A DNA stretch of 64,000 nt from NCBI RefSeq assembly GCF_014066305.1, contig NW_023501052.1:62001-126000 (forward strand), written 5' to 3'. How positions within the stretch are numbered: position 1 is the stretch's first letter; each line of letters opens with the position of its first letter. The notes under the pieces were generated by a model, which was given only the letters and a program-made list of their open reading frames with translations, searched no databases and was not told the DNA's origin. Made by a program: the position numbers and the translations under genes. The DNA is from Letharia columbiana. Taxonomy: Eukaryota > Ascomycota > Lecanoromycetes > Lecanorales > Parmeliaceae. This document shows positions 1,360-62,220 of this stretch, piece by piece.

Positions 1360-1882
1360 ATGCATTTCCAGAAACTCCTTCTTGTGCTTCCTGCACTTGC
1401 CGCTTCTGGAATCCTGGCGGCTCCTATGGCAAACAGTGGCATGGAATCTCGTCATCTGTTGCCCAGTTTCTACCGCTAACATGAGGCTAGATGTCATATC
1501 ATCAAACGAGCTGGCCAAGCGTCAGGATTCTGATGCCGTACATGATCATGGCCATGGCGAGCGTCTGGACTCTGATGCTATATATGACCATGCCAAACGC
1601 CAGGACTTTGATGCCGTATATGATCATGACCATGGCGAGCATCTGGACTCTGATGCTATATATGACCATGCCAAACGCCAGGACTTTGATGCCGTATATG
1701 ATCATGACCATGGCCAGCATCTGGACTCTGATGCTATATATGACCATGCCAAACGCCAGGACTCTGATGCCGTATATGATCATGACCATGGCGAGCGTCT
1801 GGACTCTGATGCTATATATGACCATGCCAAACGCCAGGAGAACGCTGATGCCTCGTACGATCATGCCGCTTCCCCCAAATAA
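1360..1882 (+). CDS. Kex2-processed repeat precursor, probable dikaritin-type RiPP precursor peptide
   Basis: I read two exons, 1360-1435 and 1491-1882 (155 aa), joined over a 55-nt intron with a CTAAC branch site and a CTAG acceptor. The ATG at 1360 opens a strong secretion signal (MHFQKLLLVLPALAASGILA). The rest is four 26-residue repeats and a short fifth, each full repeat ending in DHAKR, a Lys-Arg kexin site. Each repeat holds two copies of a D-x-D-A-(V/I)-Y-D-H motif, the first with Val (Tyr replaced by His in unit 1) and the second with Ile-Tyr. Secreted precursor, tandem Lys-Arg repeats and one Tyr per core is the pattern of ustiloxin, phomopsin and asperipin precursors. Two UstYa-family genes follow within 3.5 kb. 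The intron donor (GTGGCA) is weak, but phase and signal peptide support it. The core boundaries and the product are not known. A plain Kex2-processed secreted repeat protein is the alternative. Confidence 0.8.
1523..1882 (+). repeat. 78-bp in-frame tandem repeat in the RiPP precursor
   Basis: Four complete 78-bp units start at 1523, 1601, 1679 and 1757, with a partial unit from 1835. Units differ at a few positions that change single residues (Ser/Phe after QD, Gly/Asp, Glu/Gln, Arg/His). The Lys-Arg codons and the second Tyr core are constant, as expected if the repeats are under selection as peptide cores. Confidence 0.95.
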
Positions 1883-2580
1883 TCGCCACCAACGAGAAGG
1901 CTCCATTGCAAGTTTAGGAAGCAAGGGGGTTCTTGATGCAGTAGGACGCGCTTTTCTCGTTCTGTATAAGCAAGCTAGATTGTTTGGAATTGGCAAGTGA
2001 CGGAATGGGTTTATACTTCTTGGAGGAAACACCCTTACGGTCATGTACGGGATGATAATTTGGTCTGACAAGTTGTTTCAATTCACGAGATGTTACTATA
2101 ATAGCTCCATAGTAACTTGGAAACGATAAAGTACAGGGCTTGATGTGTTGGGTGCTGCCCTTATCCATATTGGTTGTGATGTCCTTTTTCATATGTCGAG
2201 GCTTTCACAGTAGGTTCGATGTGATTACATACTGCAAGCTTTTTTTCGCCTTTTCACTGTGTCATCCTCGGTGTTCACGTAACGTTTCGCCCACAACACT
2301 GCTTGTATGTCTAGGTTGTGCAAATGCATACGGACGCCACAGGCGGAGGCGGAAAGCAAGAAGACCATCTACTTAATTGTAAACATGTATATGCTTACGA
2401 GTGGTGGCTTTGACTGGCCCTGTTTGTTTTATAAAGAATGTTGTTAAGTATTCAGCGTCAAGGGGCAGGCATAGCATGAGATTGATAAAACATATTCTCA
2501 ATACGTAAGCTGTGATACATCGATGCATCAGGCCATTGTTTCACACATTAGCAGAAACCACAATAAACCCTGACCCTCCC
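1883..2580. other. Intergenic between precursor and first UstYa-type gene
   Basis: This is the shared 3' side of two convergent genes. Short frames on both strands have no recognisable content. No other feature seen. Confidence 0.5.
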
Positions 2581-3595
2581 TCAGTCCCCATGATGCACCT
2601 GCCCAATCTTATTTTCGAAACTTTCGCCAACCACCACCCCAAACTTCGGATGTTTCAAATACCCGGGCTCCATGACCTCCCTCACAGATCTCTCTCTCGC
2701 CCACCCGTTTATACTGGCCCAATTCACACACTCATGCGGACTGGACCAATTACCCAGCGGTATCGGCTGCGTCTCGCCCCACCGCATCGTCACAGGCGTG
2801 GTATCCCCATGACACATGACGCTTTGGCGCAGCATGTCGATACAGTGTTCATTGTGGTAGCGATTATCCTCCGTCTCTTGATCGGAAAGGTCGGGGAAGT
2901 AGTAGGAAGGGTACATGTAGCGATGGAGGCGTTTCTAATCAGTTGAATTAGTGGGGTTGTCGTTTTGCTTGGGAGGGATCAGAAGTGTCTTATATTTCTC
3001 CCTTACAAGGCAGTGGAGCTCATGGAAGACGGTCAGTGTGCCGAAAAAGCCCCCGTCTGGCAGTGCGACGGCTTGCTTCTTTCGCTCGGGATCGATGGCT
3101 GTCATTTCGGCTGGAGAGATTCGTATGTTTGAATCTTTTGAGCTTAGTATGGATTTTCTGTCTGGCCGGGGCTGAGAGGGAACGACTTGCATTGAAGGAG
3201 ATCGTGCCATGCGGCGTCAAGGCTTTGGCTAGGTAAGCCGGCGTACAGGCTTGTTGTTTGGTTGGAATTAAAATGCTGGATTTTGAAATTTATAGCCTTC
3301 CGAGCCGGCGCTGCTTAGGGATTAGGCAGGACTCATTGGTGCCCCTTCGCGGAAGTTGCTTACAATAGACTAGACCAGGCCCATGCGATGTCGAAGGCGA
3401 AAGTGAGTATATCATCGTTGTGGCAACTGCTGTATATAAGAGTATGAGGCCCAAATGTAGACCGAAAAGCAATGGCCATTGACGCAGAAAAGAACGTCGT
3501 TGATATAGAGGTACGGGCGGGGTTTCAGTCATATTGTCGAACGACTCATCGCCCTGGAACAGCTTTTCCTCAAAGGAATCGTCAGAGGAGCTCAT
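2581..3595 (-). CDS. UstYa-family (DUF3328) oxidase
   Basis: I read four exons on the minus strand: 3595-3364, 3310-3187, 3142-3007 and 2934-2581 (281 aa). Introns are 53, 44 and 72 nt and all phases agree; the 44-nt intron has an unusual TACTAAG acceptor. After a charged N-terminus there is one membrane helix (about residues 38-60, LLFGLHLGLILLYTAVA). Then come the family landmarks: SPA, LDAAWHDLL, FHELHCL and, after the last intron, HNEHCIDMLRQSVMC. The two HxxHC motifs are the putative metal-binding signature of the family. Family members oxidatively cross-link or cyclise fungal RiPP cores (ustiloxin, asperipin, cyclochlorotine) in the secretory pathway. It lies 0.7 kb from the repeat precursor, so cross-linking of its Tyr cores is the likely role. 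The exact reaction cannot be read from sequence. Confidence 0.88.
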
Positions 3596-4549
3596 CTTTT
3601 CAGCGGCATTGATGTTGAAACAACAACGAGTTACGAGCGCTGACTTGTGAAGGGAGTCAAAACCTGGAAAAGCGGAGGAAGACCGACAAGAGCAGGTATG
3701 AGACCGATTTGGCTAGGATGTTGGAGGAGAGAGAAATGAACTGAAGAGAATGGCAAACATGAGATCAATGCAGGGCCTTCGAAAATCATGTTCGGGAGTA
3801 GTGTTCAGGAGAGGAAGGTCATAGAGACACTCGGATAAGACATTTTGCTTCCATTGGCGTGAATGGAATGCCATGAGTGTGAGTTAATTCTTTTGGGCAG
3901 AGTGGCAAAACTTCGATGTCTACTCAGAAGTTGAGGGACATCGGTAAAGTAGGTGCTATAGATTCCGGCAAGTTCCGCCAGCCGCCAACGGATGAGGCAA
4001 AAGTCACTGTACATATGATCAATTAACCAATGACTGCTATGTCTCGAGATATCCTCGTTCCGGCCCTTCCGCCCTAATATCCCTGATCTGCAGCTGAGCG
4101 CTGCACATTGACCTGGTTATGCGTTCCAACACCTTTAGCAAACATAATGTCGCTTAGCGTACATCTTCATTGGCATTCATCTGCCGTTTCAATAAATGCC
4201 CATCATGGCGGTACGTCTTGGCCATGTAGGCATGTTATAAGCTTCTCATGAAGTACAAGATTGCGTGATCAACCTCAATGATCACATCAGCAAATGCGTG
4301 ATCCATGTAGACACCTCATCATCTTTGAAGCCTGATCTGCATATCTTCTTCTCTGGGTTGTCTGCTACGGATCCTTTCCGCGCATAGTAGGGCACTGTGA
4401 GGATCAAGCCTCTCTTGATTTCGTAAGTAAGCATCTTCTATGCGATTCGCATCATCTTGTGTTGTTCTTTGATTATCACTTGTTTCCAACCGTTGAATCA
4501 ACTCGAAGCCTAAGAAAGCTCTCGACGACCTCGGACACCAACACCAACG
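3596..4549. other. Divergent promoter region between the two UstYa-type genes
   Basis: The two oxidase genes are transcribed away from each other across about 950 bases, so this region could hold a shared promoter. No open frame here has recognisable content and no binding site could be assigned. Confidence 0.45.
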
Positions 4550-5266
4550 ATGAAGTCGCTCTGCTCAGGCGCAATGGCTTTGGTGACCTGCGTTATTGTT
4601 CTTGCTGTCATGATATCCATCACCACGTTTGCGTACACAGCTAACCCCAAGTACTGGTGGTCTACAACCGGACTCCAGCAAGTTTGCGGCAACGACCCTC
4701 TCCCCGAGACCATGGTATTCACCGAGCACCACCAATTCATGAATTTGTCGCATGACGCCGATGTCTACTGGGGCAAGCTCACGACGCCTAATGGCGGCTT
4801 CGTCAGGCAGCCAGACACAGAGGGTGTCGTGAGGAAACATGGAATCAGCATGTTTCATCAGCTACATTGCTTGCAAATGATAAGGGCGGAAATTCAACGA
4901 TTGATGCATTTGAAACATTATCATGACGCTCAAGCACCGGGAGAAGATAAGAACATCGAAGAGATATTGAACGATGAGGCACACTGGACGCATTGTCTGG
5001 ATTATATACGCCAGGTCAGTGCTCTCTCGTTGCTATCGTCTGAGGCGGGGTGTAAAGACTGCTTGTCTGACATGGAGGAAACAGGGCATCCTTTGCGCTG
5101 CAGACGGTACAGTGGAGAGTCCTAAAAAAATCCGAGTGAGAAAGACATCATCAGTGGTGACATGGTGACCCATAAGTGTCGCAGCTCGAGATTGTTGTAC
5201 GAGCTTTCCGAGGAATCAGGGGGTCGGTCACCGTCTCATCACCATCATCATCACGACGACAAATGA
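4550..5266 (+). CDS. Second UstYa-family (DUF3328) oxidase, reading frame broken at an A7 run
   Basis: Exon 1 is 4550-5014. A 70-nt intron (5015-5084, GTCAGT...CAG) follows, then exon 2 from 5085. A membrane helix lies at about residues 9-30. The first metal motif is MFHQLHCLQMIR and the second is HWTHCLDYIRQ, which runs over the splice site into GILCAADGTVE, exactly as in the family. The frame then closes at 5166-5168. The expected family C-terminus (VTHKCRSSRLLYELSEES) lies in another frame just downstream, ending at 5264-5266 after a His-rich tail. The frame changes at or just after the run of seven A at 5124-5130. This is either a sequencing or assembly indel or a genuine late disruption; a small unusual intron is less likely. 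The catalytic motifs precede the break. It may act with the other oxidase on the precursor at 1.4 kb. Confidence 0.82.
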
Positions 5267-7214
5267 TGGCATTCTATGTTAGCGCACAACGTGGCGAATC
5301 TGAATGTTTGGATACAAGACCTGCCTTACCTACTGTCAGTGAGTACCCTGTGCCCAGCAGTTGCTGTCAGCCGTCCCTCGTACAATCGAGCGGATCACGG
5401 GATGCACGAGCCCCGGAAGAAGTTGCAGTCTACAGATTCCAGAAGACTAGCGAAGGAGATGGCTGTTCTCTGGTGACATTGTATTTCAGATCTGCTACTC
5501 TAGCGGCAAACTTTTGACAAGCTGGATATCTCTATGGCTTCCACACTTTATATGTTGCGGTGATGCCTTCGTAGCCCATCCACGCCTCCCACTGTGCGCC
5601 CCAAGCCCAGCCGATACTAGCCCATTACTTAATGTCTGTGGCACATTCAACGGCGACTGTAAGGCTTATCAGAGCGATGAGACTATTACCAATAGTCGTG
5701 TTAGCGCGTACCTGTGAAAGAGAATGTGAAATATCTCCCAGCCAGATAGCCGGTTGGGGTGCTTTACACACCAGTGGTACTACTATAGTACATATCCAAG
5801 TCCCCCCACCTCAGGCTTACCGGTTAGCTCCCATCCATCCCAGTCAACGACACTCAGAAATTTATGAGTGACGGGACTGGGGCCAAGATGGTGGAAAATC
5901 CAGCCAGTGTGGGGTGAGGCTTTCCATTGGACAAGATGCTCAGCGGGTCATGGTCATTGAAGACGAGCGTAATTGATTCCAACGTGTCTAACACAATAGC
6001 AGAGGCCGTTCCTTGGGATAGTTGAACAATGCGTTGTCTTTGGCGTCCAAACGGCTTTTGATGAAGGTTCAGTTATGAGGGTGCCTTCGTCTGGGCAATG
6101 AGGTCGCACCTCGTCAGCGAGTCGATGGCCGTGAGTTCTTGCAGATACTGACCAAAATGGAGGCGTGCTGATCCCAATTGCTATCTGACGTCTTCTCTTG
6201 CATTGAACCAATGGTCGGGCGTGCTCCTCCTCAGGTCTACCCCGCAGACATTGGTCTCGCCACCTTGCACACTAAGTGTCCAGTATCCTCATCTGCTTCG
6301 ATGACACCCATTGTAATCCAAAGCAAGCGCTTTAACCCTCAGCCCCTCTTCCGCAGTGGAGATGTCCTAACTTTTCCTGATACCATCTCTTTCAAAGCCG
6401 TCCTCCTGGTCTTGTCCTCCAAGTCTTTCTCTCGGACAATCTCAATTCGTAGTCCACATTCTTACCTTCTTCAGCCATCGTATCCTTGTGCCCAACTCTA
6501 AAACCAATATCTGGAACTCGAGGCTCTGCGATACCAGGATGACTGCCACGTGACAGGGGAGCGTCTCCGCTGGGGTGAGATGGAAGAAGAAGTGTACACG
6601 CACACGCAGGAGCAGCGTTGGATCATCGCAGACCTTGGCGTCTTGAGGTTTCCAACAAGGCTTCGCGGCCTAGGTGCTGCTGTTCGTGCTAGTTCTGCTC
6701 GAAGCGGGTGGCACGGAGGTTCCACGGTGACGGGTGTCGCAGAGGCAGTCATTGAGGCAGCTTTGTTTCCAGTGAGCTCCAAACTGATAAGTGAGGGATT
6801 TGTTGAGCTGTCGAGCATATGCTCTTGTAGTCGCCTGGTGTCTGTGACAGGTTTATGAAGCCTGGGGGTGGTGGGGGTCTTGACACCTGTAGATCGCCTT
6901 GTAGGGCTGCACTAGTGGACCAAGGGAATTGCTCATGTGCCCATTGTCTCTTTTAGCCCTTCGGAAGCTCTCACAACACTCGGTACTACCACTGCTGATC
7001 ACAGCACTCCGACGCTGTATCCAACATGCCCTTCACTTCTATGGCAAGCCCTCAGCACTGGATCCTTTGACAGGCTCCGAAAGACCAACAAGCTTCAGAG
7101 TCGACTAAATCCACAGAAGTGCGGAAAAAGTGAGAGCCTCTATGTAGGGGGACGATAGCCAGAGTTTTGGACTGACCCTTCTTCCAGGCGCCCGAACCTT
7201 TTTTACGACTCACC
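5267..7214. other. Gene-free stretch
   Basis: Several overlapping frames of about 100 codons lie on both strands at 6180-6860. None has a domain, splice logic or composition that convinces me. The last few hundred bases should contain the F-box gene promoter. Confidence 0.4.
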
Positions 7215-8540
7215 ATGACCGGATTTGATGATCTTCCGAATGAGATTATCCTGGAGCTGTGGCACCACGTCCTCCCTCCACATGACATCGCAAGCTTTGC
7301 TCTGGTCTCAAAACGAATCTTCGCCTTTGCTAAACCGTCTTTGAAAGAGCACCATCGCTTGAAATCGGAATATTCTATCATTGAAAATGACCGAAGCTGC
7401 GATGGTAGCATGTTGGCGCATCTACTGAAAGACGTTCTACTCAATCCTCACATTGCTTTCTACATCGAGAAAGTCTGTATCTGTGACTGGCGCACATGCT
7501 GGGAAGATCCAAATCGTGGTGTTCCCTGTCGTCTGGATCTGGAGGTAGATGACGTGCAGAATTACGTCTGGCATGTACCGTATCCTGAGCGGGACATGGA
7601 ATTATTCAGGAATGGCATTCGAAAAGCGAAACATGTGCTCCCTAGTGAGATCGACGTTTGGATCAAACTCCTTGAGAGTGGGCACGAGGATCCAACCCTG
7701 GCCCTCTTGCTAAGTCTTCTCCCAAACCTCTGCACGCTTTCGCTCGAAGACCCCCCCAAACGAACTCTCTTATTCACTAGCATTCGCCGGATGGCCCAGA
7801 ATGCCCCTTCAACATCATTTCTCAAACTGAGGAGCTTCCACCTGGCCGACAGCGTTTCTGAGCGAAACGAGGGCATATCTCTCGTAAAGCTATTTGCACT
7901 GCAACCTTCCATGGAGAAGATATCATGTTTCGATGTCGACAATGTTCGTCAAAGACGTGGTATTCCCGACTGCCTCATAGCTCCTCAAAGTTCTAATGTG
8001 ACCGAATTGGTCTTTGACTCATGTGGCGCGATTGGGAAGCACATTCCTGTACTTCTCGAAGGAATCAAAAGGCTGAAGAGGTTTACATACGTCGCGCTCG
8101 GTAAGACAGTCGATGCCTTCAGGATAAGATCCGCCCTTCTCAATCATTGCCGACACTCTCTAGAGTATTTGAAGATGAGCTACCATGACGGAGAAGGAAA
8201 TTACATGGGCAATCTGCGCTTGTTTGAGAACTTGAAAGTGCTCCATATTACACACAGCCTCTTAGTGGATCCAGATGCCGGTGACGACTTGAACATGGCA
8301 GACTTGTTGCCTATCTCCATTGAGACTATTGATACGACTGGCCAATCCCGTCGGATAGTCAGCCACATTCGCCCATTCATCAGAAGTCTAGTGAATGCCA
8401 AACGCACACGACTGTCGAATCTGAAAACACTAAAGTATCGGTTCTACGATCTCTTCGACTCCGGCAATCGCATGCATCTCATCTTCACCGATATGTGTCG
8501 GTTATGTCAGGCGAATGGTGTTCAATTACAATTTGAGTGA
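7215..8540 (+). CDS. F-box domain protein
   Basis: Single-exon frame of 441 aa. The first ~45 residues form an F-box: DLPNEIILELWHHVLPPHDI then SFALVSKRIFAFA, with the LP near the start and the hydrophobic/Ser-Lys spacing that binds Skp1. The rest is Leu-rich with irregular repeat-like strands (for example LRSFHLADS, LKVLHITHS, LKTLKYRFYD), as in the degenerate leucine-rich part of fungal F-box proteins. The inferred role is a substrate adaptor for an SCF ubiquitin ligase; the substrate is unknown. The coding frame is intact, in contrast to many neighbours. It is not obviously linked to the RiPP genes. Confidence 0.85.
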   Translation: MTGFDDLPNEIILELWHHVLPPHDIASFALVSKRIFAFAKPSLKEHHRLKSEYSIIENDRSCDGSMLAHLLKDVLLNPHIAFYIEKVCICDWRTCWEDPNRGVPCRLDLEVDDVQNYVWHVPYPERDMELFRNGIRKAKHVLPSEIDVWIKLLESGHEDPTLALLLSLLPNLCTLSLEDPPKRTLLFTSIRRMAQNAPSTSFLKLRSFHLADSVSERNEGISLVKLFALQPSMEKISCFDVDNVRQRRGIPDCLIAPQSSNVTELVFDSCGAIGKHIPVLLEGIKRLKRFTYVALGKTVDAFRIRSALLNHCRHSLEYLKMSYHDGEGNYMGNLRLFENLKVLHITHSLLVDPDAGDDLNMADLLPISIETIDTTGQSRRIVSHIRPFIRSLVNAKRTRLSNLKTLKYRFYDLFDSGNRMHLIFTDMCRLCQANGVQLQFE

Positions 8541-40178: not shown

Positions 40179-41733
40179 TCAACTGCATCTCCACTCCGCG
40201 AAGCGATTGAAAAGCTCATTCTCCCTCAGCATCTTCATGTAGTTGCTTCTAATGCTGATAATGACCTCCAAACCAGCAGCTTCCTCGTTTCCTTTGCAAC
40301 CCTTCAGTTCAGGCAGTACGAGACAGAAATCCTCAAACTGTGGCTTATGTATCCTGACTCGCTCGCACCTTCCACCCACCAGTGTGCCCCAGTCAAGATC
40401 GTACAGATCCTGAGTCGCCCAGGAATTGACCACAAGGTATCGCCCCTCAAATCCCATACTGTCGAGTCTCACTCTGCTGACGTCAGGGACAGATTTAATG
40501 GCTCCAATCAAGTGTGGGAGATAGGTGTCGTCGTATTGGTTGATCTTACGCCGCAGAGTGTGAGCGCACTCGGTCACGCCTTTGGCCGTAGGAATGACAG
40601 TGCTGAAGGGTTTGATGATGTTTCCCCAGATGAGAACATTGCCGATGAAGCGTGCAGGCAAGGGCGGTCTTGCGAACCGTCTTGCATCGATGACGAAGCA
40701 GAGCCCGGTCTCGTCTTTGATCGATTCGGAATGATTTTGAATCTTGGTCTTGTGGGCGGCGGTGACACAACACCACATCAAAGAAGCGAGGGCATCATTG
40801 GTAGAGATCCAACTCGTCTCGTCACCTTCTAGTCTTGATGCCATTTCCTTCAATTCTCGAAGCTTTGCTTTGGAGAAAAAGAACATTTCTCCTGCCAATG
40901 GGTTGGACTCAGACCGTGACGTCTCGTTCGCTGGTCCGACACGAAGAACCGCTCGTAAATTGTGCATTGCATTCAATCTGAAGTCGAGAAGTGAACGAGA
41001 AAAAAGAACGATCCACAAGCGCAGATTTTTAAACATTCGAGAGAGAAAGCCTTGCGCCCGAGCCGGACCTTTTGGTTCAGGGTGGTATTTATATTCTCTG
41101 ATGTCTTCGAGTCTTGCGCTCTCATCACCCTCTATGAGCCGGGTTCTATCAACGCAATCAGGGCTGACAAGCTGCGACCCATCTTCACCCCGACAGTAAG
41201 CAGCCCACACTCTGGCGACAGTAAAGGACCCGGCGCCGTCGGTGAAAGCGTGGTCGAGGATGAATCCCAAGACCATGCCACCTTTGATCAAATTTATCTG
41301 TGCTAGCAGGACCGGTCTCTCGCCTACCTCGAGCCTTTCGACCTTCGGTATAAGCATCTGTTGTCGTGTTGGCACCAGTATACTGTAGTTGATGTCGACC
41401 ATAGGGAATTGTTTCGAGCGCAAGGCCTCATAACTAGGATAGTCCGTCCTTCTCAGGTCTTTCACTATGAGTGCATCTTCGGCGGTCCTCCAGGGAGCTG
41501 TGACTGCCAGTCTCCCTCTCTGTGGAGCGTCTGGAAGAAGCGTGACCGTGCCCGCGAGAAGTGGGATCGCGTTGAACGTCTGAGCGAGGGCAGATGTCAT
41601 ATTCTGCACCAGTAACGAGACATCTGAGCCGGAATCGGGAAAGAACAAAGCCTTGTGAACGTAGGGGGCACCGATGACGTTATCGAGAGGGAGTCAAACA
41701 GAAAGGGGCAGACTCTGGCGATGATGAGGCCAT
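40179..41733 (-). CDS. BAHD/trichothecene-acetyltransferase-like acyltransferase, frame shift near the N-terminus
   Basis: About 515 aa including the N-terminal part. The acyl-transfer motif HxxxDG is present as DHAFTDGAG, and the structural motif as LDWGTLVGG, spaced as in the fungal transferase family (PF02458). Such enzymes pass an acyl group from CoA to a hydroxyl or amine of a secondary metabolite. The main frame has no upstream ATG. The ATG at 41733 opens MASSSPESAPFCLTP in another frame, and the family-like LDNVIGAPYVHKALFFPDSG follows one frame over. The switch lies at about 41684-41694 with no room for an intron, so there is one surplus or missing base. The gene is divergent from the PKS and on the same strand as the FSH1 hydrolase, so esterification of the polyketide is the likely job. 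Confidence 0.82.
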
Positions 41734-42783: not shown

Positions 42784-43653
42784 TCAACCTGGAGAAGAGC
42801 TTGTTGCCCGTACGATCAAGTCGCGGATTCCCTTGACCATGAGTTTAGAAGACTTCGGATCCCGGGGCACCAAGTGTCCTTTACCGTGGTCTACAATAGT
42901 TGCAGACGCTTGATCGCAAAGATGGTAGAGAGCAACTGCACTATCTATCAACGAATCGTTGTACGCAATGATATGGCATGTCGGCATGGTAATGATTTGA
43001 CCGTGCTCGTCAGCGAGGAAAACCCCCGTGCCATCCGGGAAAGAGGGTGGACCGCCACTCATGAACACCGCACATTTCAATGAGTTCTGAATTTCCTTCC
43101 GTGCACACCTTGTCAAGTAGTTGACAACGAACATAGCAGCCACGGATGCGCCTTCCGAATTTCCGATGATTCCGTCGAAAGGCCCGTCGTGGTCGAGAAC
43201 GCGATAGAGGCGGTCGAGGATCGTTTGAACGTCGTTGGTACTCTCGGGACGTAGAGACTGCACCATTTCACGGTACTTTTGCTCTGGCGTCAACCGATGC
43301 GGCGCACTCCAGAGTGCATTAAAAAACTCATAATCTGCTCTACCGCTACAGTATTGTTTGAGGAAGCGACGGTGAGGAGGTGAGCCGTAAAACTCCTTGA
43401 ATTCGTTGGGAGGAGGTGATTCGATGTCGCCATGAATGAAGTGGAAAGACGCGGTGCCGTCCTGCTCAAGGTCTTGGACGATTGGCACTGTGTCCTGTCA
43501 GCAGGGTACCGATGAGAGATAAGGTTGTACGTACAGATCTGCACTCGAAAGGTCTGTTCATCGTGTCAGCGCCAGTCGGACGAGGTGTCACAGAGCATTC
43601 CCGTGTCTCACCTCTGCGTTCGTGCCAGCGCCTGCTAGACATAAAAACCTCAT
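42784..43653 (-). CDS. FSH1-family serine hydrolase, LovG-like
   Basis: I read three exons: 43653-43612, 43553-43535 and 43487-42784 (254 aa), with introns of 58 and 47 nt and consistent phase. The start MRFLCLAGAGTNAE matches the family's 'MRFLCLHGxGTN', with Ala in place of the usual His. The nucleophile elbow is IGNSEGASVA and the catalytic His lies in DHGKGHLVPRD. A candidate Asp is in the IIAYNDSLID loop. The LovG-type members act as trans thioesterases that release products from highly reducing PKSs. The PKS beside it ends at its ACP with no release domain. The two genes diverge from one 728-bp region. Confidence 0.9.
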
Positions 43654-56337: not shown

Positions 56338-57035
56338 GGAGAATAATAGTAATAATAGTAATAATAGTAATAATAGTAATAATAGTAATAATAGTAATAA
56401 TAGTAATAATAGTAATAATAGTTAATAATAGTAATAATAGTAATAATAGTAATAATAGTAATAATAGTAATAATAGTAATAATAGTAATAATAGTAATAA
56501 TAGTAATAATAGTAATAATATAGAGGTCTATATTAAAAGTTCTATATATGCGCTAGTGCAGCCCTAATCCTACTTTCGGAAAGCGGCCTTATAGAGAAAA
56601 AGTTTAGAAATATCTTCTCACAGCGTATAGATAAGATTTTAGATACTTCTTTTAGCTTAATAGAGGTATTAAGCCTCGAAACCTAACTAGAATTAGATGC
56701 GATTTCGAAGAACTCCAGACGTATTATCTAGATAGCCCTTTAGGTGAGGCGTTATTCGAAGTCTAAGCGTAAGAGTCTTAACGGTATAAGACTTTCGATA
56801 TAGACCTCTATAGTAATAATAGTAATAATAGTAATAATAGTAATAATAGTAATAATAGTAATAATAGTAATAATAGTAATAATAGTAATAATAGTAATAA
56901 TAGTAATAATAGTAATAATAGTAATAATAGTAATAATAGTAATAATAGTAATAATAGTAATAATAGTAATAATAGTAATAATAGTAATAATAGTAATAAT
57001 AGTAATAATAGTAATAATAGTAATAATAGTAAATA
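56338..57035 (+). repeat. AATAATAGT minisatellite, two arrays split by an inserted element
   Basis: A perfect 9-bp unit (AATAATAGT) runs from about 56341 to 56520, with one two-base interruption near 56420, and again from about 56813 to 57030, in the same orientation and register family. The arrays end in AAATAAATAAAT. The intervening ~295 bases are a distinct AT-rich element with inverted ends. Confidence 0.95.
56518..56812. mobile_element. MITE-like element with terminal inverted repeats inside the minisatellite
   Basis: The left end ATATAGAGGTCTATAT (56518-56533) is the reverse complement of the right end ATATAGACCTCTATA (56798-56812). The 295-bp interior is AT-rich, has no long frame and does not resemble the flanking array. 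Size, inverted ends and a clean position in a repeat fit a non-autonomous DNA element. TA may be the target duplication, though the flanking TA-rich repeat makes this impossible to prove. Confidence 0.6.
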
Positions 57036-61356: not shown

Positions 61357-62220
61357 GAGACGATGGGAAAAGTTTTGAAAGAGCTGCAGAGGATGACCAA
61401 TTCATGAAGAGGTGGGTAGCGAGAAAAAATGCAACTGTCAGCCTAGCGCACCCGCGTATTCCTTCTGAGCCGGGATGTGCGAGCATAGCGGGCTGCATAC
61501 TAGTGCAATGTGAGTGGACGACAGCCGCCTGATTAACATGCGAAAGAGGGGCGGAGAACCCCCACAGCCTCATGATACTTAACAAGGCGGAGTAAAACTC
61601 GAGGTCTGCTTTTGAGCATTAAATTTACCCAATATAATTTTACAATTATACCCATCTTACATTTTCAACCCTACCAAAAATGGTATAATTATAAGTTATC
61701 TTTGTTATTTATAAGTTATTATTTTTGGGTTAAAATATAAGTATTATTAACATATTGCGTGCCTTATGGCCCTCGCGTCCTCCTCGGGGCCCTATTTAGA
61801 TAATAGATTTGCTATAGGGATACCTAATTAAGTTTTTCTGTTGATATATTTATATTATAATTATTAGGTATTTTAGAGTTTTAGTTATTTATTCTAATTA
61901 TTTATAACTTGGTTACGCTAAGGATTAAATAGAGATATTTATACTTCGCTATACCTCTCGCGAAAATAATTTTATATTACCCGCCCTATTATTATAATAT
62001 CCCTATAAATAATATTTTAAATCTCCTTATGTTATTATTATTTTTTTTTTTGCTTTTGACGACTTCGACTGCCCCATGCCGATACAGTGGTATGACTACC
62101 TCCAGTCGGTTTGATGATGGTTTGCAAAGCTAATAAACAGCCTACGAAGATACTCGAGTAGGACAGAAATACGCGAATCCTAAACAAGATCTTAGTGGCG
62201 CTAGGACACCGGGACTCATA
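61357..62220. other. AT-rich tract between kinase and HeLo genes
   Basis: From about 61611 to 62050 the sequence is very AT-rich (TATTATAATTATTAGG-like, many TA dinucleotides), with no open frame and a run of about 11 T. It contrasts with the neighbouring genes and resembles RIP-mutated repeat remains. The right ~170 bases should contain the HeLo gene promoter. Confidence 0.6.

Follow-up and report, generated by a model that had tools for sequence, protein, structure and literature searches.

A Kex2-repeat precursor gene and two UstYa-family oxidase genes in Letharia columbiana: a likely minimal dikaritin-type pathway

We examined a locus in a 64,000-nucleotide stretch of the Letharia columbiana genome, called the window here (positions 62,001 to 126,000 of contig NW_023501052.1, or C17:62001-126000), in which a gene for a secreted repeat precursor (1360-1882, plus strand) is followed by two genes for oxidases of the UstYa (DUF3328) family, UstYa-A (2581-3595, minus) and UstYb (from 4550, plus). 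The assembly searched for comparison comprises 52,243,142 bases in 161 contigs. A preliminary description of this DNA had seen in the locus a compact, apparently undescribed cluster of dikaritin type. We use this term for a ribosomally synthesized and post-translationally modified peptide (RiPP) that comes from a Kex2-repeat precursor and is cyclised by UstYa homologues (PMC10512285).

The precursor gene and its doubled cores

Translation and a splice test give a precursor of 155 residues, predicted to be secreted, with exons at 1360-1435 and 1491-1882. The first exon encodes a signal peptide, MHFQKLLLVLPALAASGILAAPMAN (judged from sequence); the second opens with a short stretch up to the first Ala-Lys-Arg (AKR) site and continues with four 26-residue units, each holding two DxDAxYDH-type cores and ending in Lys-Arg, and then a short fifth unit, QENADASYDHAASPK. 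Tandem Repeats Finder describes the array as a 78-bp period in 4.2 copies with 95% matches. The translation, the splice test and the repeats thus bear out the secreted Kex2-repeat precursor first described at 1360-1882, including its 78-bp repeats with Lys-Arg ends. The intron then placed at 1436-1490 is less certain: these 55 nt (weak donor GTGGCA, CTAAC branch site, TAG end) form a GT-AG intron that keeps the exons in frame, but so does a 40-nt alternative at 1451-1490, with the same kind of branch site and end.

Cleavage after the Lys-Arg pairs is predicted to release QDSDAVHDHGHGERLDSDAIYDHAKR, QDFDAVYDHDHGEHLDSDAIYDHAKR, QDFDAVYDHDHGQHLDSDAIYDHAKR, QDSDAVYDHDHGERLDSDAIYDHAKR and QENADASYDHAASPK. 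An octapeptide like DxDAxYDH occurs nine times in the precursor and has Tyr in eight of these, in keeping with the Tyr-bearing cores of the preliminary description. Each Lys-Arg unit is a doubled core, the middle site being Glu-Arg, Glu-His or Gln-His, that is, not a dibasic Kex2 site; two cores per Lys-Arg unit is an unusual feature of this precursor.

The translated precursor contains no Cys, whereas leotiomycete alpha-type pheromones have two (PMC6339444); this difference and the two adjacent UstYa genes speak against a fungal alpha-type pheromone precursor. We also discarded a Pcf11_C Pfam hint that scored below its cut-off. Searching the L. columbiana genome with the precursor returned its own two exons and one antisense match (E 0.16). 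Six core strings sought in the open full-text literature, a search that excluded the supplementary tables of large surveys, occurred in one unrelated paper. Searching the open texts thus did not yield this core, while the Kex2-repeat/UstYa class itself is already known. The term "apparently undescribed" holds for the protein and text searches, which gave neither a relative of the precursor nor a related text with the core strings, and does not extend to those survey tables.

The two oxidase genes

UstYa-A, of 277 residues, is read from 3595 to 2581 with three introns (3363-3311, 3190-3135, which is GC-AG, and 3006-2935). It has one membrane segment (judged from sequence) and the motifs HELHC and HNEHC, and matches the Pfam UstYa family (PF11807) at 7e-57, confirming the gene described earlier. 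Both HxxHC motifs keep their two His and their Cys in each of 11 aligned sequences, namely UstYa-A itself and 10 of the 19 hits that it gave. Among solved structures there was no sequence match at E <= 1.

A spacer of 954 bp (3596-4549) separates the divergently transcribed oxidase genes and is possibly a shared promoter. It has no 10-mer in common with the region upstream of the precursor (601-1359), where shuffles would lead one to expect 1.4; six scattered CGG-N-CCG pairs, which may be due to chance, were seen in this comparison.

UstYb as written has 182 residues, encoded by 4550-5014 and 5085-5168, and matches Pfam UstYa at 1.6e-15; both oxidases score above the Pfam cut-off and have two HxxHC motifs apiece. 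Exon 1 (155 residues) holds a membrane helix and the motifs HQLHC and HWTHC, as seen from translation, alignment and a structure model. In all 12 sequences aligned, UstYb together with 11 of the 38 hits to it, each motif retains both of its His and its Cys. In the gene model an intron (5015-5084, GTCAGT...ACAG) leads to exon 2, which begins GILCAADGTVESPKK and runs to an in-frame stop. Alignment and a UstYb profile place a conserved tail with a six-His run at 5144-5266, in a frame that differs from that of exon 2, so that the frame is lost between the two pieces; the profile scores 17.8 bits against the open tail piece 5126-5263. The second oxidase proposed at 4550-5266 is therefore a UstYa-family protein with both motifs, but not a single frame to 5266. 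Its tail may be damaged or misassembled, with the motif-bearing part intact. The tail piece ends in SPSHHHHHHDDK, a natural six-His run, and a relative from Hymenoscyphus fraxineus (P0026) has GGHYQHGHDGHHH there, also His-rich.

In the model of exon 1 the membrane helix is joined by two further helices on which the motifs lie (mean predicted local distance difference test score 72.6, predicted template modelling score 0.45). The model has no fold match in the PDB at E <= 0.001, and 89 at E <= 10. No paralogue of UstYb appeared at E 1e-3 in the flanking sequences read from this genome.

Linkage across the genome and extent of the cluster

PF11807 gave 35 exon-level matches in the L. columbiana genome, which we grouped by hand into about 16 places; for 11 of them we surveyed some 7 to 10 kb of flanking sequence (at C4 the left side only). 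At six of the 11 loci read, a Lys-Arg repeat array lies within 10 kb of a UstYa gene: in the window, where both oxidase genes are within 3.3 kb of the precursor end, and on contigs C33, C65, C47, C32 and C4. Flank scans gave DPDGDLYEYKKAKR at about 531.6-532.0 kb of C33 (oxidase at 528.5-529.4 kb; the precursor has 12 options in the in-frame splice test), EDEISGRYGDPKIKR at 178.5-179.1 kb of C65 (oxidase from about 185.2 kb) and a decayed array, QDADAAYGVYEKR, from 109.2 kb of C47 (oxidase at 107.5-108.3 kb), in which Tyr has changed to Cys and the frame is lost. The C32 array, DPAKDYIYPFKTYPEEEKR, came from tandem-repeat rows (545.4-545.7 kb; oxidase at 542.4-543.1 kb), and that of C4, ADDEPGAPSIWSVEKR, from a lower-score rescan in which 36 tandem arrays were considered (1130.8-1131.0 kb, L035:7914-8071, minus; oxidase from 1132.7 kb). 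The three units of the C4 array end in WSAEKR or WSVEKR and have Trp instead of Tyr; a signal-peptide-like stretch precedes them. Lying about 1.7 kb from the UstYa match, this array is possibly a UstYa substrate without Tyr.

A peptide scan had returned ten rows, four of which we kept as Kex2 arrays (window, C33, C65 and C47); the other six were basic-rich or antisense and were dropped, as was a two-copy basic stretch at C2 (L034). The flank scans showed no Lys-Arg array at C5, C62, the second C17 place, C7 or C2, and no further array was seen in the rest of the window and the 40 kb to its left. Lys-Arg arrays near UstYa genes were noted at L027:2030-2633 (minus), L026:2612-2968 and L021:2745-2980, with cores around GRYGDPK, GDLYEYK and DYIYPFK. 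The C47 oxidase is among the sequences of this genome most like UstYa-A (44% over 71 residues; C7, 42% over 76), and the decayed C47 precursor (L030:2159-2485) has a lead-in, KRQDxDAxY, that resembles the window core.

Ascomycete genomes encode 5.25 Kex2-repeat proteins on average (PMC7329392); for the roughly 220 kb that we read out of 52.2 Mb, rough arithmetic gives a chance expectation of about 0.02 arrays. Among named proteins the closest relative of UstYa-A is HYFRA_00010332 (50% over 98%) and that of UstYb is HYFRA_00010330 (54% over 74%), both of H. fraxineus. They lie on one contig of 658,816 bases with one tag number between them; the oxidase pair has therefore probably been kept together. 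Closer relatives (71%) come from European Nucleotide Archive contigs (P0001, P0020) whose recorded lengths differ and which are uninformative on pairing, and we found no literature on UstYa together with Hymenoscyphus. Because arrays stand at six of 11 loci and the best named relatives of the oxidases share one H. fraxineus contig, we do not regard the linkage of precursor and oxidases as chance.

As far as tested, the cluster consists of three genes, and "compact" holds to the same extent, no tyrosinase or S41 peptidase match being found on its contig. Genome-wide, tyrosinase matches number three and are confined to C38 and C62; S41 peptidase has a single weak match, on C130, and the proprotein-convertase domain found in Kex2 (P_proprotein) has one, on C4. 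The C62 match lies beside two UstYa places (C62:42204-53243; L018, L019), as in the ustiloxin and phomopsin sets, and no Lys-Arg array was seen there. Ten further open reading frames (ORFs), chosen from 84 in the window, gave no match to UstYa, tyrosinase, peptidase, methyltransferase or transporter families, and no reductase or transporter was found among the ORFs scanned, which cover the flanks in part.

To the left of the locus are a reading frame that we take to be F-box-like, although Pfam gave no match for it, and a methyltransferase-domain ORF that overlaps a DUF3419 ORF. This methyltransferase-domain ORF lies some 3.6 kb from the precursor, beyond the edge of the window, and resembles a membrane-lipid enzyme. 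To the right is an F-box-like gene (7176-8540) whose Pfam score is below the cut-off (22.2 against 24.3 bits). Judged from translations, polyketide-synthase-like frames occupy about 44.3-52.3 kb of the window; the ORFs scanned between them and the oxidases include one F-box-like and one resembling phosphatidylinositol-specific phospholipase C. Near these frames we noted a serine hydrolase of FSH1 type (42787-43497, minus) and a gene resembling those for trichothecene acetyltransferases (40182-41693, minus). At 56342-57032 a 9-bp repeat (AATAATAGT / ATAGTAATA) forms two runs, of about 20 and 25 copies.

Interpretation and alternative explanations

We read the locus, with a probability of roughly 80%, as a minimal dikaritin-type RiPP pathway made up of a repeat precursor and two UstYa-family oxidases. 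A signal peptide with Kex2-separated repeats, nearby UstYa genes, two HxxHC motifs in each and Tyr in the cores are all present, and together with the linkage at six of 11 loci and the H. fraxineus pair they uphold the dikaritin-type assignment of the preliminary description. We infer that the genes are expressed and that the precursor enters the endoplasmic reticulum and the secretory pathway, where Kex2 would cut after each AKR in the Golgi and release a short C-terminal peptide and four peptides of 26 residues, of which one has a single Tyr and three have two each. The two membrane-anchored oxidases, by analogy with the cyclochlorotine hydroxylase CctR, would have their catalytic part in the lumen and hold two copper ions by the paired HxxHC motifs; they would oxidise and cross-link the core around Tyr, DA[VI]YDH. 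The flanks would then be trimmed by general peptidases, and the peptide would be secreted to serve its presumed biological role. By analogy, Tyr is the likely cross-link partner, since repeats near DUF3328 genes contain Tyr more often (65.6%, against 38.2% elsewhere; PMC7329392). In CctR, DUF3328 forms a copper-dependent dimer and HxxHC(x)nHxxHC is a two-copper site (PMC12435403). CctR shares with our UstYb model this motif pair, a single membrane helix and a lumenal helical domain, but it hydroxylates a non-ribosomal peptide, whereas the substrate proposed here is ribosomal.

The preliminary description had also expected the acidic, His-rich cores to give a product unlike described dikaritins, perhaps metal-binding. 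An unusually acidic product that binds metal is at most a possibility, because acidic lead-ins recur in other precursors and are perhaps flank: acidic residues precede the aromatic residue in other arrays of this genome (EDPDGDLYEYKKAKR-like, QDADAAYGVYEKR, SDPAKDYIYPFKTYPEEEKR, EDEISGRYGDPKIKR, ADDEPGAPSIWSVEKR), and EDYXI is common to ustiloxin and phomopsin precursors (PMC6339444). By this analogy the acidic part may be a recognition sequence that the final peptide no longer contains. Repeats with His have also been described near DUF3328 genes (types G-3 and G-8; PMC7329392). Three of the four Kex2-unit peptides hold two Tyr in acidic, His-rich surroundings, and it is conceivable, if improbable, that each oxidase acts on one half and that the result is a metal-binding peptide (for copper or another metal) of about 24 residues, either with two rings or with a Tyr-to-Tyr link inside it. 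Such a peptide would be a dikaritin in which two cores are joined.

Several points weigh against a dikaritin-type pathway. UstYa proteins also function in non-RiPP pathways (PMC12048977). Both intron options of the precursor have weak splice donors. One protein search, with a query one Asn short of the final model, found no precursor homologue at E <= 0.01 among 2,691 candidates. The frame test favours the proposed frame but carries modest weight: over all nine cores this frame has the lowest ratio of nonsynonymous to synonymous differences (pN/pS), 0.25, with values of 0.38 to 1.28 for the five others. Over the five distinct core sequences the ratio is 0.32 against 0.37 to 1.27, which is close for one other frame and does not clearly exclude it. 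To these are added the contig's lack of tyrosinase and S41 peptidase matches, the Trp of one of the six linked arrays (C4), and the loss of the UstYb frame, by the stop at 5168, ahead of the conserved tail.

The last of these points would also fit a non-working relic of a dikaritin-type cluster in this strain, whose second oxidase lost its conserved tail (5144-5266) by the frame change after exon 2, and the decayed repeat precursor at C47 indicates that such loci die in this genome. The reading frames of the precursor repeats, of UstYa-A and of the UstYb part with its two HxxHC motifs are nevertheless all open, and misassembly of the second oxidase would give an identical picture; we consider a relic unlikely. 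We think it a good deal less likely still that the precursor yields a linear, unmodified Kex2 peptide, whether hormone- or pheromone-like or a metal-binding secreted one, beside which the oxidases lie by coincidence. Such a peptide would agree with the 78% of surveyed Kex2-repeat proteins that have no nearby DUF3328 gene (PMC7329392), but not with the excess of arrays near the UstYa loci read over the rough chance expectation, nor with Tyr in eight of nine cores.

The alternative to which we give least credence is that the oxidases serve some product other than the peptide, for example that of the polyketide-synthase-like frames about 39 kb away. UstYa proteins are indeed found in polyketide and non-ribosomal peptide synthetase clusters (PMC12048977); here, however, the intervening ORFs scanned include no tailoring enzyme next to the oxidases, the pair adjoins a repeat precursor, and the relatives of both enzymes lie on a single H. 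fraxineus contig.

Among known systems, the minimal dikaritin-type pathway proposed here resembles the asperipin-2a cluster (aprA, aprY, aprT, aprR), which is likewise small, with a Tyr-core repeat precursor, a UstYa-family oxidase and four genes without a tyrosinase (PMC6514808). It differs in its core (DA[VI]YDH rather than FYYTGY), in having two UstYa genes instead of one, and in the lack of a reductase or transporter among the ORFs scanned. With ustiloxin B and phomopsin it shares a signal peptide and Kex2 repeats, at least two UstYa-family genes, and acidic residues before the core Tyr (PMC6339444), but their cores are YXI(G/P) and their clusters hold a tyrosinase, an S41 peptidase and a methyltransferase, the first two without a match on our contig. 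We do not place it in the ustiloxin/phomopsin sub-type (the five-part set of Ding et al., as told in PMC12048977), there being no tyrosinase match on its contig. The architecture is that of the Kex2-repeat/DUF3328 pairs in a survey of 1,461 genomes (Umemura 2020, PMC7329392), in which 1,758 of 7,878 Kex2-repeat proteins have a DUF3328 gene among their 15 nearest.

The locus is thus probably an ordinary new example of a widespread fungal peptide-pathway class with few known products (five, by the count of a 2022 review; PMC10512285). With three genes, two of them for oxidases of copper type, and with a repeat unit of two cores, it makes a small testable case for enzyme recognition, and six different repeat cores beside paralogous oxidases in one genome would allow cores and enzymes to be compared directly.

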